Shown piece by piece: positions 36,149 to 43,277 of a DNA stretch of 64,000 bases. Each line of letters starts with the position of its first letter. Within the stretch, counting starts at the first letter, position 1. The stretch spans positions 1 to 64,000 of the forward strand of contig NZ_JACSWB010000141.1 of the NCBI RefSeq assembly GCF_016888135.1, read 5' to 3'. Origin of the DNA: Leptolyngbya sp. CCY15150. Its GTDB lineage: Bacteria > Cyanobacteriota > Cyanobacteriia > RECH01. A program made the translations under genes and the position numbers. The notes beneath the pieces were generated by a model. That model saw only the letters and a program-made list of their open reading frames with translations, was not told the origin of the DNA and did no database searches.

Positions 36149-39100
36149 GTGACTTCTCAACCCGACCAAATTCAAGCCCTAATCCGCGAAATTGATGGCG
36201 TGCTAAGTAAGGCAAGTCCTCGCTTGCCGTGGGTGATGTCGGCGGAGGCAGCCGAGCAGCGCAACGTGCTAGAGCAAACCCGTCGGTCGTTGCTAGCGCT
36301 TCAGCAGCAAATGTTGGCTGAACCTCCTGCCGCACACTCGTCTCAGCCATCCCCTGCGCTAACTGAGGAATCTGCCCAGCATGTCCTGCAGGCGTTTCTG
36401 CAAGAAATGAGTTACTTGCGCACCAACATGCTGCAGCCCCTGCGGGCCGATATCGATCGGCTCAACCGCGAGCGCGACGCCTTGGTGCAAGATGTGCAGC
36501 AACTCCAAGGCCAGCGCCAGCAAATGGGTCTGCCGGCGGCGGATCAAACATCCATGATCGATAGTTTTCTGAAGGCGTTGATGAATCGTCTCCAGGAAAC
36601 TCTATCTGAGCAAATTGCCCAAACCCTTTCCCAGTATGAGCAGGAGGAGCGATCGCTTCCCGGTTCTCCTGAAGCTGCCGCGTTGCCCGCAGCCGATCTC
36701 ATGCCCTTGTCTCCCAGCCAGCGATTGGCCCGGATTCAACAAACCCAGGCCCGTTCCGATCAGCTTTTGCTGAAGCTCGACGCTACGCTTCAAGTGATCT
36801 TCGAATCCTTGCAGTCCAATATCCAGAGCTATGAAGACTCTCTGTCCCAAGGGCTGGAGAAAATGCATAGCTTAGGACAGCAGGGTGAGTCGATGTTTGC
36901 GGGGCTAGTGAATCGTCTAGCGCAGCAACTGGGTCGTGAGGCCTCGTCCTACCTGCAATCGTCCCTAGAAGCAGAACGGTGGCGATCGCCTGATGCACCA
37001 GCTAACCTACAACCTCGCCCTGCTGAACCACCGGCGACGGGAGATCCTACGTTAGACAATCTATCGGATGAACAGATTGATCGTCTGCTGAACGAGCTGA
37101 ACGGGGGAACTAGCGAAGACGCTCCCGCCAAGCCAGAGCCTCCAGCCAAAACACCCTTTTCGCTGACGGACTTAGTTGGCGATTCAGACGACGACATCAC
37201 CATCTTCCAAATCAGCGAGCGCCATCCTCTTTATACGCCCGAGGATGACGACGAAAAGACGATTATTCAAACCAGGGAAGAGTTTGAAGCCGCTCGGGCA
37301 GCCCGAGAAACCCCCAGTCCAGCGATCGCCTCGAATCTCGATAATCTAGAGTCGGCCCTAGATTGGTTGGAGCACATGGATGAGGATGAACCCACGCCTC
37401 AGGTTTCGACCGAGGGCGTGCCTACACCGGAAGCGATCGCTGCCGACACCGACGATGTCGCGATCGACACACCGGAAACCCTGTACGCCGATGATTTTTA
37501 TCAAAGTTTATTTGGCGAAGATGAAGACGGCTCTCTCACGGAGCGATCGCCTAGCCTGGCGGATGATTTTACGGCCGAGGCCCCAGAAGACCTGGGTGGT
37601 GATGCCACAGATGTCAATGACGTGTCTAACCTTCGCCCGTACCGCTTTGGTCTTGAGGAAGATGAAGTCCTCAATGACGACCTATTTGGTGGATTGTCTG
37701 ACCCGGCTGAGCAACGGGCAACCGAGACCGGCGAGCAAGCTGACCTAGAAGATACTGACCTAGAAGGTAGGGAGGCCAGTGATTCAGACCTAGACCTAAA
37801 CCGTGATGAATCGCTGTCTGGACTATCCACCCAGGCTCTCCAAGATCTCTTCCCAGACAATGAACCGCTGTTTTCAGACTACGACAATAGCCAAGCAGCG
37901 ATCGCCTTGGATGGTGACGAAGAGGAGCGTTTGGGCTTCCTCGACTCCGATGCTCCGATCACAGAGCGCGACTTGGCCCTAGAGGATGATGCTCAAGACA
38001 GCGACTGGAGTGATACCCCTCTGGTTGATCCCGAGCACATGATTACTCGACTCACAGATCTGATTGAACCCAGCGAACTGCCGGCCTTCCTGGATACCAG
38101 CCAAGCGCTTTCAGGCGACGACGATCGCTACATGCCCGCCTCCCCCGACGAAGACCTGCTGGGCGGTGAGGAGTTCGATATCGCCCCCAGTGAGCTGATT
38201 CACATTGACGACACGACCCTCAATCAACTGGAAAACGATTTATCAAGCCTTGAAAATCCAGACTCGCCATTTCCCATTGATCCCAATACTGAGCTGAGTG
38301 CGACCTTAGAGCGCTGGGATGGAGCAGCAGCGCCATGGATGGATGAGCTAGGGCTCGCTGATCCCAACATGCCGGATGCTCGTCTGGATGAGGAGGTCAC
38401 GGAAACGGTTCCAGACGCGGTTGATCAGGCTCGCCCAGAGATGCCCGACGAAGACGCCATGTCCGGTCTAGACTTCGCAGCAGATATGGGGGATGCGCTT
38501 AACTATGATCTGGAGGCAGACCAAAGCAGTCTAGATGAATTCGGTCTAGATGAATTCGGTGACGAAGACCTGGCGGCAGATGAGCATCAACCGGCAGCCA
38601 TGGATGACCAGCCAGACGACGACGTTCGTCCCTTGGATAATCTTGCTGATGTCTGGGCCGCTTTACGAGAAACCCCCTCGGAGCTTGAGGCACCGGCAGC
38701 GTCTCCGGAAGCGTCTGAGGATGCCGCAGAGGGTCTAACCCTTGATGCTATCGGCAATGACTGGGAAGACGCCGAAGACTATCTTTCGTCCGTTGAGCAG
38801 GATCATTCTCCTGACCAAGATGATTCTCCTGCCGATGCAGATCGATCGGCTGATGTGTTCGGCGGTTGGGAGACCGATGCATTCACGGATGACGTCACGG
38901 ATGACGTCACAGATGAAGCAGCCACGGATGCTGGCCGTTCAGAAGGGGCGATCGCTGATCACGAACCTCATTTTCCCGATACCAGTGAGCTGGCGTTTGA
39001 AGACGATGACGCCGCTCTCTTTGGGGCAAGTTTTGACGACGGTGAGGGTGGAATTTTTGACACCTTTGACACAGAAGACCAGCTCTCTGACGATGCTGAA

Positions 39101-40477
39101 GCCCTGTTTGATGCCGATGATGCCCAAGTCCAGACCGTGGATGTGGATGATCTGCTGCTGCCCGATGAGCCGGCTCCAGCGCCAGCATCTCCTGTTGATC
39201 AGCCATCGGTTGACCAAGAAACCCTTCCGGCTGCAGAAACAGCTTGGATAGATGACGATACCCATAACATCGAAGCGTTACTGCTGAACAGTGATGATCC
39301 TGTGCCTGCCGATGATTCCGCAGAAGCGGCTTGGAACGATGCTGATGCCGATACCATCGAGGGTTTACTTCTCAGTAGCGATACCTCAGACGTTGTGGAA
39401 GAAGAGGCGATCGCTGCCCCCGTCGTTGATCCTGAACCCACCTTAGGGGATTGGTTTTTATTTGATGAAGACGCGCCCGATCTGCCTGCAGCCCTCGACG
39501 AGGATGCCCTCATCGAAACGCTGCTGGAAGAAACACCCGAGGACGAAACGCTAGAGGACGAAACGCCCGAAAATCTGGATGAAACGCCCGAGAACCTAGA
39601 CGATGTCTTCGAAACGGTGCAGGATACTTCGTTCATCCCTGAGCCTCACGAAACATCCGCGCCTCCCCCACCGGAACCGGTGGAAGAAACCCTAGCTGAG
39701 CTGTTTTCCGAACCCGAAACCTCTGCGCCGCCCCTTGACCTTGGCGATGAGTTTACCCTCGATACCCTGCTGGAGCGGGTCTTAGATGGAGAAACACCGT
39801 CTGCCGATGCCCTAGACAGGCCATCAGAGATGCCGGCAGCAGCCGAGGATAGCGCCGCCCTGTTTCCTGAAACGGGTGAACCTGAAACGAGCGAAACCTT
39901 AGAGGGCTGGTTTACTGATGACTTGGAGGACACCTCGATGGATGTGGCTCCGACAAGCGATCGCCCCAACCCACCTACCTGGGATGATGATCAGGATGAG
40001 CCGTTCAACGATGACTTAGACAGTATGTTCGGGGATGCCAGCATTCTCGATGAGAACCCCGAGTCGATGGATAGCTTATTTGGCGATTTCGATGACGAGG
40101 TAGCCGACTCTACCCTCAATGACTTCGCCGATGCTTTTGCCGAAGAGGATCAAGAGCCGGTGCCGCAACCACCTGAGGCGGAGACCTCTCTGGATGACTT
40201 ATTTGGAGACATGTCTGCAGATACCGAGGATGGCTTTGGGGAAGCGGCTGAATCGTCTCCATTGTCGAATGCAGAGACTTCTCTGGATGACTTATTTGGC
40301 GATATCCCTGATGATCTGGGTGATAGCCCAGAGCGGTCGGCTGATCTGTCTGCCGATGATCTGTCGGACGATCTGTCTGCGAATCTTGAGACATCACCTC
40401 AATACACCATCGATGACCTCGATGATTTCTTTGGCGCGGAAGACGTCCCCGAGACGCCGGAAAAAAAAAGCCCATGA
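36149..40477 (+). CDS. Very large acidic protein with coiled-coil N-terminus and repeated LFG motifs
   Basis: 1442 residues from a GTG start. About 1-110 and 120-280 are helical and glutamine/leucine-rich (LQQQMLAEPP, EMSYLRTNMLQPLRADIDRL), consistent with coiled coils. From about 290 to the end the chain is dominated by Asp, Glu, Ser, Ala and Pro and is probably disordered. Short motifs of acidic residues followed by LFG or MFG recur: NDDLFGG, DDAALFGA, DSMFGDA, DSLFGDF, then two TSLDDLFGD copies and DDFFGAED near the C-terminus. No enzymatic domain or membrane segment is seen. It overlaps the following Hsp70-like gene by ATGA, and an A9 run at 40461-40469 precedes the junction. A scaffold or client/regulator of that ATPase is a reasonable guess, but no function is known to me. 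Confidence 0.85.
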   Translation: MTSQPDQIQALIREIDGVLSKASPRLPWVMSAEAAEQRNVLEQTRRSLLALQQQMLAEPPAAHSSQPSPALTEESAQHVLQAFLQEMSYLRTNMLQPLRADIDRLNRERDALVQDVQQLQGQRQQMGLPAADQTSMIDSFLKALMNRLQETLSEQIAQTLSQYEQEERSLPGSPEAAALPAADLMPLSPSQRLARIQQTQARSDQLLLKLDATLQVIFESLQSNIQSYEDSLSQGLEKMHSLGQQGESMFAGLVNRLAQQLGREASSYLQSSLEAERWRSPDAPANLQPRPAEPPATGDPTLDNLSDEQIDRLLNELNGGTSEDAPAKPEPPAKTPFSLTDLVGDSDDDITIFQISERHPLYTPEDDDEKTIIQTREEFEAARAARETPSPAIASNLDNLESALDWLEHMDEDEPTPQVSTEGVPTPEAIAADTDDVAIDTPETLYADDFYQSLFGEDEDGSLTERSPSLADDFTAEAPEDLGGDATDVNDVSNLRPYRFGLEEDEVLNDDLFGGLSDPAEQRATETGEQADLEDTDLEGREASDSDLDLNRDESLSGLSTQALQDLFPDNEPLFSDYDNSQAAIALDGDEEERLGFLDSDAPITERDLALEDDAQDSDWSDTPLVDPEHMITRLTDLIEPSELPAFLDTSQALSGDDDRYMPASPDEDLLGGEEFDIAPSELIHIDDTTLNQLENDLSSLENPDSPFPIDPNTELSATLERWDGAAAPWMDELGLADPNMPDARLDEEVTETVPDAVDQARPEMPDEDAMSGLDFAADMGDALNYDLEADQSSLDEFGLDEFGDEDLAADEHQPAAMDDQPDDDVRPLDNLADVWAALRETPSELEAPAASPEASEDAAEGLTLDAIGNDWEDAEDYLSSVEQDHSPDQDDSPADADRSADVFGGWETDAFTDDVTDDVTDEAATDAGRSEGAIADHEPHFPDTSELAFEDDDAALFGASFDDGEGGIFDTFDTEDQLSDDAEALFDADDAQVQTVDVDDLLLPDEPAPAPASPVDQPSVDQETLPAAETAWIDDDTHNIEALLLNSDDPVPADDSAEAAWNDADADTIEGLLLSSDTSDVVEEEAIAAPVVDPEPTLGDWFLFDEDAPDLPAALDEDALIETLLEETPEDETLEDETPENLDETPENLDDVFETVQDTSFIPEPHETSAPPPPEPVEETLAELFSEPETSAPPLDLGDEFTLDTLLERVLDGETPSADALDRPSEMPAAAEDSAALFPETGEPETSETLEGWFTDDLEDTSMDVAPTSDRPNPPTWDDDQDEPFNDDLDSMFGDASILDENPESMDSLFGDFDDEVADSTLNDFADAFAEEDQEPVPQPPEAETSLDDLFGDMSADTEDGFGEAAESSPLSNAETSLDDLFGDIPDDLGDSPERSADLSADDLSDDLSANLETSPQYTIDDLDDFFGAEDVPETPEKKSP
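40461..40477 (+). promoter_or_regulatory. Slippery A9 run and ATGA stop-start overlap
   Basis: Nine A residues (40461-40469) are read GAA AAA AAA AGC in the upstream frame, which contains the A_AAA_AAA heptamer type. The stop TGA at 40475-40477 overlaps the ATG at 40474. The downstream gene is in the -1 frame, and that frame has no stop between the run and the ATG. No clear ribosome site precedes the ATG. Confidence 0.55.
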
Positions 40478-42012
40478 GGCAAGCTATTACCTGGATGGGC
40501 GATCGCTCTCCCCTAGACCATGATTCCCCCTGGTTTCTAGCCATCGACTTGGGTAGCACCCAACTCTCGGCGATGCTCGTCAATCGCCAAACCCGCACCC
40601 TGCACCCTATCTACTGGTTTAGCGTTTCCGCCCAGGCGGGAGCCTCCAAGTCCTTTGGGCTGCCCACCTCGGTCTATTTATCGATGACGACCCCGGCATT
40701 GTCCCCAGCCAGCGATCGCTCCACCGAGCCACAGATCACCCCACTGGCGGTAGGTGCCAAAGCCGATGAACTCGCCGATCTCAATCCAGCCACGGCTGGT
40801 AACCCGCACCCTGCTGAAGGCAATCAGCACCAGCGCATGTTGCTGCGCCATCTGAAAGCCCATGTCCTGAATCCCGCCGAGCACCTTAAGGAGCGCGATC
40901 TACAGGCGGCCTGCAGCATTGTGCTGGCCACCCTCAGCGGTTTTCGCGGCGATCTGCTCTCACCAGCCACGGTTCAATGTGGGGCAGAAGGATTGACCTC
41001 GGGGGTAGTGCAGACGGTGCTGAGGCAGTTAGGTGGCGTTCTAGTCAGCAGCCCGCTCACGGTGGATGAAACCTATGAGCGATCGCTCTGTGAGGCCATC
41101 CTCCAGGCTAAACTCGTGCCGTCTCGTCAGTCCATTGGCGTGATCAACGATGGCAGCGCCCTCCTCGCGGCCCAGCGCTGGTTTATCGAGCCTGCCAATC
41201 CGCCGGTGACAGCATCGACGTCATCCTTTAGTGTGGTTTGTTCTACCGGGGCGATCGCGACGGAACTGATTGCCTTGCAGCATGACCAAGTCATCCAGGT
41301 TCAGGCCTATCCCTATGGGGATCAGGCCATTCAGCAAGATGTGATTCACCTGCTGCTGGATAGTCTGACGACCTCCGCCAATATTGCCGTTGCGCCCTAT
41401 GGCCCCGACCTCGATGCTGCCCGCCCGCCCTTGCTGACGGCGTTCCTCTCCCCTAGGGATCAAGAAGCGATCGCTCAGGACGGTCTAGCGGCCTGCCTAA
41501 CCTATGACCTTGATGCCCTGCCCAGACTAGGCCAGGTAGACGCCAGCCAACGCCAGGTCTGGCAAACTCACCTAGATACCACGGCTCTAGGGCGATCGCT
41601 GCAGCAGCTTGCCCAGCGCATCTTGCGATCGCTCAGCGACCATCCAGTCCTGCAGCTTCAGGTGGGCAGCTACGCCGGGTTGATGACGCGTCAAACCTTG
41701 GAGCATCACATTCTTTGGCCCTACCTGCACAATCTTGATCCTGTGGTCGTGCGCTTGCTGGAAGAGCTGGCCATGCCCCCCCAAGCCATCGAGCAGGTGA
41801 TCTGCGGCGGCTTGCTGTATCACCATGGGGCGATCGCCCGCTGGCTCCAAGAAAAGTTTCCCCATGCCCAAGTGGAGGTGGCTCGCATTGCCCCCCCTCG
41901 CGTCATGCCCGCCCTCGCTTCTCCCCAGGGATGCGATCGCCCTAGCCCCATCGTCTACGGCATGGGGATTGTGTTGCTATCCCCATCACCTTCCCTAGAG
42001 ACCCAGACTTAG
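40474..42012 (+). CDS. Hsp70/actin-fold ATPase-like protein without substrate-binding domain
   Basis: 512 residues. WFLAIDLGSTQLSAMLVNRQ at about 21-40 is a phosphate-1 loop of the Hsp70/actin/sugar-kinase fold. IGVINDGSALLAAQRWF near 215 resembles the connect-1 region (NEPTAAALA in DnaK). FSVVCSTGAIATELIAL near 255 takes the phosphate-2 place, where DnaK has DLGGGTFDVS, so this loop is atypical. VICGGLLYHHGAIARWLQEKF near 450 would be the adenosine loop. The C-terminal peptide-binding domain of DnaK is absent. It overlaps the acidic-protein gene by four bases, so the two are coexpressed. ATP hydrolysis is unproven because of the odd phosphate-2 loop. Confidence 0.75.
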   Translation: MRQAITWMGDRSPLDHDSPWFLAIDLGSTQLSAMLVNRQTRTLHPIYWFSVSAQAGASKSFGLPTSVYLSMTTPALSPASDRSTEPQITPLAVGAKADELADLNPATAGNPHPAEGNQHQRMLLRHLKAHVLNPAEHLKERDLQAACSIVLATLSGFRGDLLSPATVQCGAEGLTSGVVQTVLRQLGGVLVSSPLTVDETYERSLCEAILQAKLVPSRQSIGVINDGSALLAAQRWFIEPANPPVTASTSSFSVVCSTGAIATELIALQHDQVIQVQAYPYGDQAIQQDVIHLLLDSLTTSANIAVAPYGPDLDAARPPLLTAFLSPRDQEAIAQDGLAACLTYDLDALPRLGQVDASQRQVWQTHLDTTALGRSLQQLAQRILRSLSDHPVLQLQVGSYAGLMTRQTLEHHILWPYLHNLDPVVVRLLEELAMPPQAIEQVICGGLLYHHGAIARWLQEKFPHAQVEVARIAPPRVMPALASPQGCDRPSPIVYGMGIVLLSPSPSLETQT

Positions 42013-42815
42013 GTTTCCGACGTAGGAGATGTTTTCCCGAGGAGAGGCGCTAGGTAGGCCACCAAGGCTCCAAGGGTAAATCCTGCCACGTTTCGTAAAA
42101 CCGGCAGCCAGTCAGGCGTACGGGTTACCACGGGCCCCAGACCGAAGGCGATGAACAGAATGCCCCAGAGCGGCGAAAAAATGAGCGCCCACTGCCATGC
42201 AAAGGGCTGCCCTTCCTGTCGAGGCTGGGCTGCAAAACCGAGAACCACCCCGCCAAGAATAGAGGTAATCAGAGTCAAAATCCACTGCTCCCTAGGTAGC
42301 CCTGGCACCACCTGACAACCACCTCGTCGTAGGCAGACCTGAATGGATTCTAGCGCCGAGATGATGGAACGATCTTCGCCATTGTCTCGCACAAAAAACT
42401 GATTGCCGTAGCGGGTTTGTAGCTCAATCCAAAAGGTGCGGGGCAGCAGGTCATACAGATCATCGCCGACGCTAAAGTTCAGCAAGTTTCCGCCCCGAGG
42501 ATCCGCCACCAGCAGCACACTGCGTTGATCTAAACCCCAAAAATCTTTGACCGATCGACCGGGGGTGCGATCAAACTGCGTCAACACCCGCAGCTTCCAT
42601 CCCGTTTCTGACTCAAAGGCCGATAGGGCTTGATCAAGTTCGTCTTGTTGAACACTAGCCAGTGAATCCGCTAGGTCAATGACGTTGGTGGGAGCCTCTG
42701 GCAACAAATCAGGATTTTCATAGGCATGGGCTGTTGGAGCGATCGCCCAGCTACAAAGAATGAGAACAACGGTGGCGCAGAGAACACCAATCGGGCGGAA
42801 GGCAGCATGAATCAT
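42009..42815 (-). CDS. psb32: TPM-domain photosystem II protein, Psb32-like
   Basis: 268 residues from ATG 42815 (MIHAAFRPIGVLC), which gives a normal signal peptide ending SWAIAPTAHA; a longer frame adds 29 basic residues that do not fit export. The mature N-terminal part is a TPM domain (NVIDLADSLASVQQDELDQA, GWKLRVLTQFDRTPGRSV). A C-terminal membrane pair follows (ILTLITSILGGVVLGF, WALIFSPLWGILFIAF). This matches cyanobacterial Psb32, a thylakoid protein that protects PSII or speeds its repair. Its stop overlaps the stop of the convergent Hsp70-like gene by four bases. Confidence 0.85.
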   Translation of the reverse strand: MIHAAFRPIGVLCATVVLILCSWAIAPTAHAYENPDLLPEAPTNVIDLADSLASVQQDELDQALSAFESETGWKLRVLTQFDRTPGRSVKDFWGLDQRSVLLVADPRGGNLLNFSVGDDLYDLLPRTFWIELQTRYGNQFFVRDNGEDRSIISALESIQVCLRRGGCQVVPGLPREQWILTLITSILGGVVLGFAAQPRQEGQPFAWQWALIFSPLWGILFIAFGLGPVVTRTPDWLPVLRNVAGFTLGALVAYLAPLLGKTSPTSET

Positions 42816-43277
42816 GGGTATTTTTAAAGCAAAAAGGTGCGAAAACAGGGCCAGCCTCAAACCAAAGGAACGAGATCGGCCCAGCCGTGACCGGACTAGC
42901 AAACAATGTACCGAGCAAGATCAACGCTGTTGAGTTGTCCATGGGCGATCGCAGATTAGAAAACCTGCTCTCTACGCCCAAGCCATCTTCGCGCATCAGG
43001 AGACGGGCGTCGTCACCTCGGTAACATGAACCGTCGTCAACCCGGATCTTTACACTTGTTTACCTGATTCTAATACTAAAGTTCCTTCGAGGGGTGCGTC
43101 AATTCTCGAAAGAACGTGAGTTCGATGACGTTAGAAAGCCAGAAACCCCTGCTCTTTGGGCAATGACCGACATGTTCAGGCTGAACTAGCCCAGCCCATA
43201 TCTCATCCTTCCACCAGCTCAAGATGAACGCAGCGGTGGATCATCTCCGTCGAACGCATCTTCAAACGAGGTGTCTG
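42816..43277. other. Gene-free 462-base region
   Basis: Upstream of psb32 and downstream of the LCP gene. The only long frame is the rejected N-terminal extension of psb32. No RNA or repeat was recognised. Confidence 0.45.

Follow-up and report, generated by a model that had tools for sequence, protein, structure and literature searches.

What does a cyanobacterium do with a very long acidic protein whose gene runs directly into that of an Hsp70-like protein? The pair lies on the forward strand of the window, a 64,000-nucleotide stretch of DNA from Leptolyngbya sp. CCY15150, and its two products are referred to here as A and H:

36149..40477, forward strand: gene of protein A, an open reading frame with a GTG start encoding 1442 amino acids, with a helical head and an acidic, disordered, motif-bearing tail
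40474..42012, forward strand: gene of protein H, an open reading frame with an ATG start encoding 512 amino acids, an Hsp70-type nucleotide-binding domain (NBD) without the C-terminal domain of its relatives
40474..40477, forward strand: 4-nt ATGA overlap between the reading frames, joining the stop of A and the start of H

A check of the open reading frames placed both genes and the ATGA overlap at exactly the positions given in a preliminary description of this DNA. The GTG start of A is backed by its relatives, with VTSQPDQIQ aligning to MTSQKDQIQ in the head family alignment. Pfam returned zero matches for A or H, and NCBIfam returned zero for H and two weak, sub-cut-off matches for A; neither protein passes a family cut-off. 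A phmmer search of the PDB found no relative of H. PHROG and PADLOC contain no matches to A-H, and a prophage or defence origin was rejected on these grounds.

Relatives of H were collected by tblastn followed by a profile search across 386 cyanobacterial genomes. At E<1e-50, about 80 of these contain a match to H, and most of the weaker hits come from other proteins with an Hsp70 fold. A scan of genome contigs with H returned one close relative only. The family architecture runs from a helical head through an acidic linker to an Hsp70-type NBD and a C-terminal domain. The preliminary description had coupled the two genes, and across cyanobacteria they are not unlinked in most relatives: among the 68 H loci in the tree set, 42 encode a fused protein, 21 have adjacent genes, and five have H without a recognised head, giving 63/68 fused or adjacent. 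One of the headless loci (L105) lies at the end of a contig, and that draft genome has a head gene on a different contig. On the H tree, a quick-search tree, the fused label changes eight times; well-supported branches require five of these changes, and one genus contains a sister pair in which L113 is fused and L045 split. That A and H act together is supported most strongly by this fusion and adjacency, with repeated switching between the fused and split forms. The two proteins very probably work as one unit and, as judged from sequence comparison, correspond to a single cyanobacterial protein in split form. The N-terminal part of A is conserved:

36149..36988, forward strand: conserved helical head of A, residues 1-280, family-wide, defined by profile, alignment and model

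In the model of a fused homologue, this head consists of long helices.

The window member is also shortened at the C-terminus of H. Nearly all relatives carry a ~130-aa, mainly helical C-terminal domain, which has no significant sequence match in the PDB and is absent from window H. A profile search found this domain neither downstream of H nor anywhere in the window genome, and likewise not in three related genomes, two from congeners and one from a member of the same family, whereas it did detect the domain in three control genomes; a search for remnants downstream of H, with a positive control included, detected none. Judged from these searches, the window lineage has lost the domain. A convergent gene for a TPM-domain protein (42009-42902, reverse strand) ends on the H stop codon with a 4-nt overlap, at the place where H lost its C-terminal domain. 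Measured against two congeners, both A and H are under purifying selection, with a dN/dS of 0.06-0.08 for the head and 0.11-0.12 for H. Within the tail, the ratio is 0.04-0.05 at the SLFG site (A residues 440-465), 0.065-0.13 in the C-terminal LFG cluster, and 0.23-0.28 in the remaining linker. Because both proteins are constrained relative to the congeners, the split, shortened form of the window is functional.

An AlphaFold2 (AF2) model of H, computed from an alignment of 33 homologues, has a pLDDT of 78 and a pTM of 0.81. Foldseek against the PDB returned Hsp70 NBDs or longer Hsp70s for all of the best 50 matches, with E-values from 1.7e-12 and 10-14% identity. Window H stops after the NBD, with no C-terminal substrate-binding domain, and its initial description as an Hsp70-type fold lacking the peptide-binding domain stands. 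The connect, phosphate-2, and adenosine regions of H align by hhalign with DnaK of the same genome (E 1.4e-4). In Pfam, window H falls below the HSP70 cut-off and is absent from its own genome's PF00012 list, and HSP70 matches three of the 33 members scanned singly, weakly (best 0.0019). The commonest NCBIfam match is HscA, weak and found in 19/33 members; DnaK is also weak. PilM_2 gives weak matches in 10/33 members (best 1.9e-4), accompanied by weak pilM and MreB matches in NCBIfam, as might be expected of a polymer-forming or pilus-type actin-fold ATPase of the PilM, FtsA, MreB, or ParM kind with A as its filament-binding partner. PilM, FtsA, and MreB share the superfamily fold of H, but the structures closest to H are all Hsp70 NBDs and HscA prevails among the NCBIfam matches, so we consider a filament-forming H very improbable.

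The nucleotide loops of H are preserved to different degrees:

40543..40560, forward strand: phosphate-1 loop IDLGST, H residues 24-29, from the loop census
41224..41265, forward strand: degenerate phosphate-2 loop, H residues 251-264, with Ser257 at the position of DnaK D194 and Glu264 at that of D201, from hhalign and the census
41803..41811, forward strand: adenosine loop CGG, H residues 444-446, from the loop census

The phosphate-1 Asp (Asp25 in the window) is found in 66 of the 70 sequences in the census and the second adenosine Gly in 69/70. A Lys near the DnaK catalytic Lys is present in 57/70; it lies beyond the region aligned by hhalign, and its equivalence is guessed from position. 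The phosphate-2 Asp is present in 7/70 and lost in 63/70, being replaced by N in 46/70 and by S in the window, and Glu replaces the following Asp (DnaK D201) in 57/70. The phosphate-2 loop singled out early on as atypical is thus degenerate across the family, with N rather than the S257 of the window in most relatives. Hsc70 mutants predict nucleotide binding with poor hydrolysis for a loop pattern of this type. With the phosphate-2 Asp lost but the phosphate-1 Asp, adenosine loop, and putative catalytic Lys retained, H may hold ATP and hydrolyze it slowly or not at all. The same phosphate-2 loss, together with the altered phosphate-1 loops of the compact f6 members, would also suit a dead (pseudo-) nucleotide-binding domain that acts as a structural adaptor only. 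However, the retention of the phosphate-1 Asp, the putative Lys, and the adenosine Gly at the frequencies above exceeds expectation if nucleotide were irrelevant, and this explanation seems rather doubtful to us. At about 560-590 aa, the f6 members L055 and L115 lack the C-terminal domain, have altered phosphate-1 loops, and possess a linker of ~30 aa.

After residue 300, the tail of A contains 31% D+E and 2.7% K+R, has a pI of 4.05, and is among the longest in the family. Six exact LFG motifs, one MFG, and one VFG make eight listed copies; the six LFG compare with 0.21 expected, and 0/2000 composition shuffles reach that number, so the repetition seen at first reading is an excess beyond chance. 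Four of the copies are grouped near the C-terminus:

40001..40348, forward strand: four clustered acidic [LM]FG repeats (SMFGD, SLFGD, and two DLFGD), lineage-specific, A residues 1285-1400, from the motif census and dN/dS

A tblastn search found no second copy of the array elsewhere in the same genome. Conservation of the LFG motifs between species, an expectation of the preliminary description, does not extend to the array, which is enriched in only 13/66 linkers and absent from family f7, the family holding most fused forms; a single LFG copy (A residues 448-459) occupies a family-wide position. The repeats were accordingly rejected as a conserved family feature, and the census indicates that the DDLFGD-type array is a lineage-specific expansion. 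A 2608-aa fused member (L034:3268-11094) has a larger array than that of the window, with about 18 acidic (L/A)FG-type linker repeats.

Three elements of the linker recur along the family:

37490..37525, forward strand: LYxSLFG motif, A residues 448-459, DDFYQSLFGEDE, from a profile match and dN/dS
38024..38080, forward strand: IxxLTDLL motif, A residues 626-644, from a profile match
38114..38269, forward strand: PASP module, A residues 656-707, YMPASPDEDLL...LNQLENDLSSLE, from a profile match; an isolated confident helix in a fused homologue

With profiles derived from the same linkers that they score, so that E-values flatter the seeds, LYxSLFG is detected in 43/68 linkers at i-E<0.01 (window copy, i-E 0.05), IxxLTDLL in 39/68 at the same threshold, and the PASP module, ~50 aa long, in 53/68 (window i-E 1e-22). 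The window has all three, and the order SLFG<TDLL<PASP is kept in 29 of the 30 linkers that do. In the model of the fused homologue L131, weak overall with a pTM of 0.35, the linker is predicted to be disordered (pLDDT ~30) except for the PASP helix (res. 483-500), at ~70-77, and the SLFG helix stays at ~44. The PASP helix thus looks like the sole structured part of the linker in this prediction.

These observations bear on the docking originally proposed, with A as client, cofactor, or activator of H; in this reading the acidic LFG repeats would recruit several H molecules per A chain. The LFG excess is far above chance, selection constrains it in the window genus, and arrays have expanded in other lineages too, up to 18 copies in L034. 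Nevertheless, arrays are missing from all f7 fused proteins and from most others despite the presence of H, in 42 loci each linker is covalently joined to a single H, and the single fused-homologue model lends no support to LFG docking on the ATPase fold, the SLFG helix being without confident placement. Recruitment of H by the repeats is therefore unlikely in our estimation.

Five genomes (L163, L164, L165, L166, and L167) retain the A gene at the same locus, beside crp and the sugar transferase, without H, and a search with a positive control found no H remnants in these A-only loci. As these genomes show, A has a role of its own and is more than a cofactor of H. PASP is retained in two of the five A proteins, so this module may bind something other than H.

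The gene neighborhood of the relatives offers a hint at the cellular setting. A divergent gene for a CRP-family regulator (crp) lies directly upstream in 34/53 loci, usually followed by genes for a DUF2232 membrane protein and a CobT-like protein. Directly downstream on the same strand are a Bac_transf sugar transferase (phosphoglycosyl transferase) in 15/53 loci and a CDP-alcohol phosphatidyltransferase (PgsA-like) in 5/53, with overlapping frames in three (L049, L051, and L054). In these three, H overlaps the PgsA-like gene by a few bases, which suggests translational coupling. The crp/sugar-transferase synteny is missing altogether from the window lineage, and the best CRP match in the window genome (71% identity) lies on a separate contig. 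In 37 intergenic regions separating crp from A-H, CRP binding sites were looked for and rejected, none rising above chance under simple mononucleotide shuffles. SyCRP1 of Synechocystis is required for type IV pili (PMC2633013); the CRP of this locus is known only as a CRP-family regulator. Since the synteny is confined to relatives, is absent in the window genome, and comes without a CRP site, we can only infer the setting, which the neighbors of the relatives point to as the cell envelope or exopolysaccharide.

The Hsp70 NBD fold and the sugar-transferase neighbor of the relatives would also be expected of an ordinary chaperone or cochaperone module, with H helping DnaK/DnaJ, for example in motility-linked polysaccharide secretion. 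DnaK1/DnaJ3 of Nostoc punctiforme act in such secretion, and DnaK1 is, like H, a cyanobacterial Hsp70-fold protein, with a possible polysaccharide link in common; it differs as a DnaK homologue whose gene lies between grpE and dnaJ11 and whose partners are DnaJ and GrpE (PMC9239167). H lacks the substrate-binding domain, the window genome has four long Hsp70 matches elsewhere, and no DnaJ or GrpE gene is among the identified recurrent neighbors of H loci, although partners could be encoded elsewhere. An ordinary chaperone role appears quite unlikely.

We favor, by a slight balance of probability, a scaffold that associates with itself and carries, on a tether, an Hsp70-type nucleotide switch impaired in hydrolysis; A and H would be its split form. 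Self-association would occur through the head, in a coiled coil or helical bundle, and the head would also place the protein, possibly at the membrane. Partners would dock on motifs strung along the flexible acidic tail. H would be the tethered switch, binding ATP with slow or no hydrolysis. As it has no peptide-binding domain, it may work on its own tail and the partners recruited there, or be under their control, and not serve general unfolded clients; the PASP helix is the best candidate tail site for H. A more specific and distinctly speculative version, to which we give a low probability, makes H a 'cis-client' Hsp70 that has traded its peptide-binding domain for a disordered chain of its own. 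Its nucleotide state would open and close the docking motifs along this acidic tail and so control how an envelope or polysaccharide complex assembles.

Compared with Hsp70/DnaK (PF00012), H has the NBD fold with the phosphate-1 and adenosine loops (Foldseek E ~1e-12), but its identity is 10-14%, the window protein is below Pfam detection, the substrate-binding domain is missing, the phosphate-2 Asp is changed to N or S, and a helical head and acidic linker are tied on the N-terminal side. The GTPase-centred conflict systems (eLife 2020, PMC7159879) share with H an Hsp70 domain without a peptide-binding domain. Found for the most part in actinobacteria and firmicutes, they also carry GTPases, GrpE, and a full HSP70, none of which was seen as a recurrent neighbor of H loci. 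No description of the head-linker-H family was found in open-licence PMC full texts, where coverage leaves a description elsewhere possible, and no Pfam, NCBIfam, PHROG, PADLOC, or PDB entry was found for it. Head-linker-H is thus a real, constrained cyanobacterial family, undescribed as far as our searches reach, and its member in the window is split and shortened at the C-terminus. The family combines an Hsp70-fold NBD, lacking a substrate-binding domain, with a motif-bearing disordered chain. It is widespread in cyanobacteria. Its fused and split forms, both occurring naturally, are a ready test of how an Hsp70 NBD can work when it has no substrate-binding domain, and laboratory cyanobacteria can be approached genetically through the crp/sugar-transferase locus conserved in relatives.

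Part of the head is also found in another context. The coiled-coil portion is common to the N-terminus of a cyanobacterial EamA transporter, and EamA/DMT transporters have an N-terminal helical region homologous to the A head (profile 66-273), followed, unlike in A, by a membrane transporter domain instead of a linker and Hsp70 domain. Such transporters are encoded at L159:3222-5000 (G000:C141, outside the window), L160, and L162, with E-values of ~1e-20 to 1e-33. This recurrence suggests that the coiled-coil portion is a reusable self-association or targeting module.
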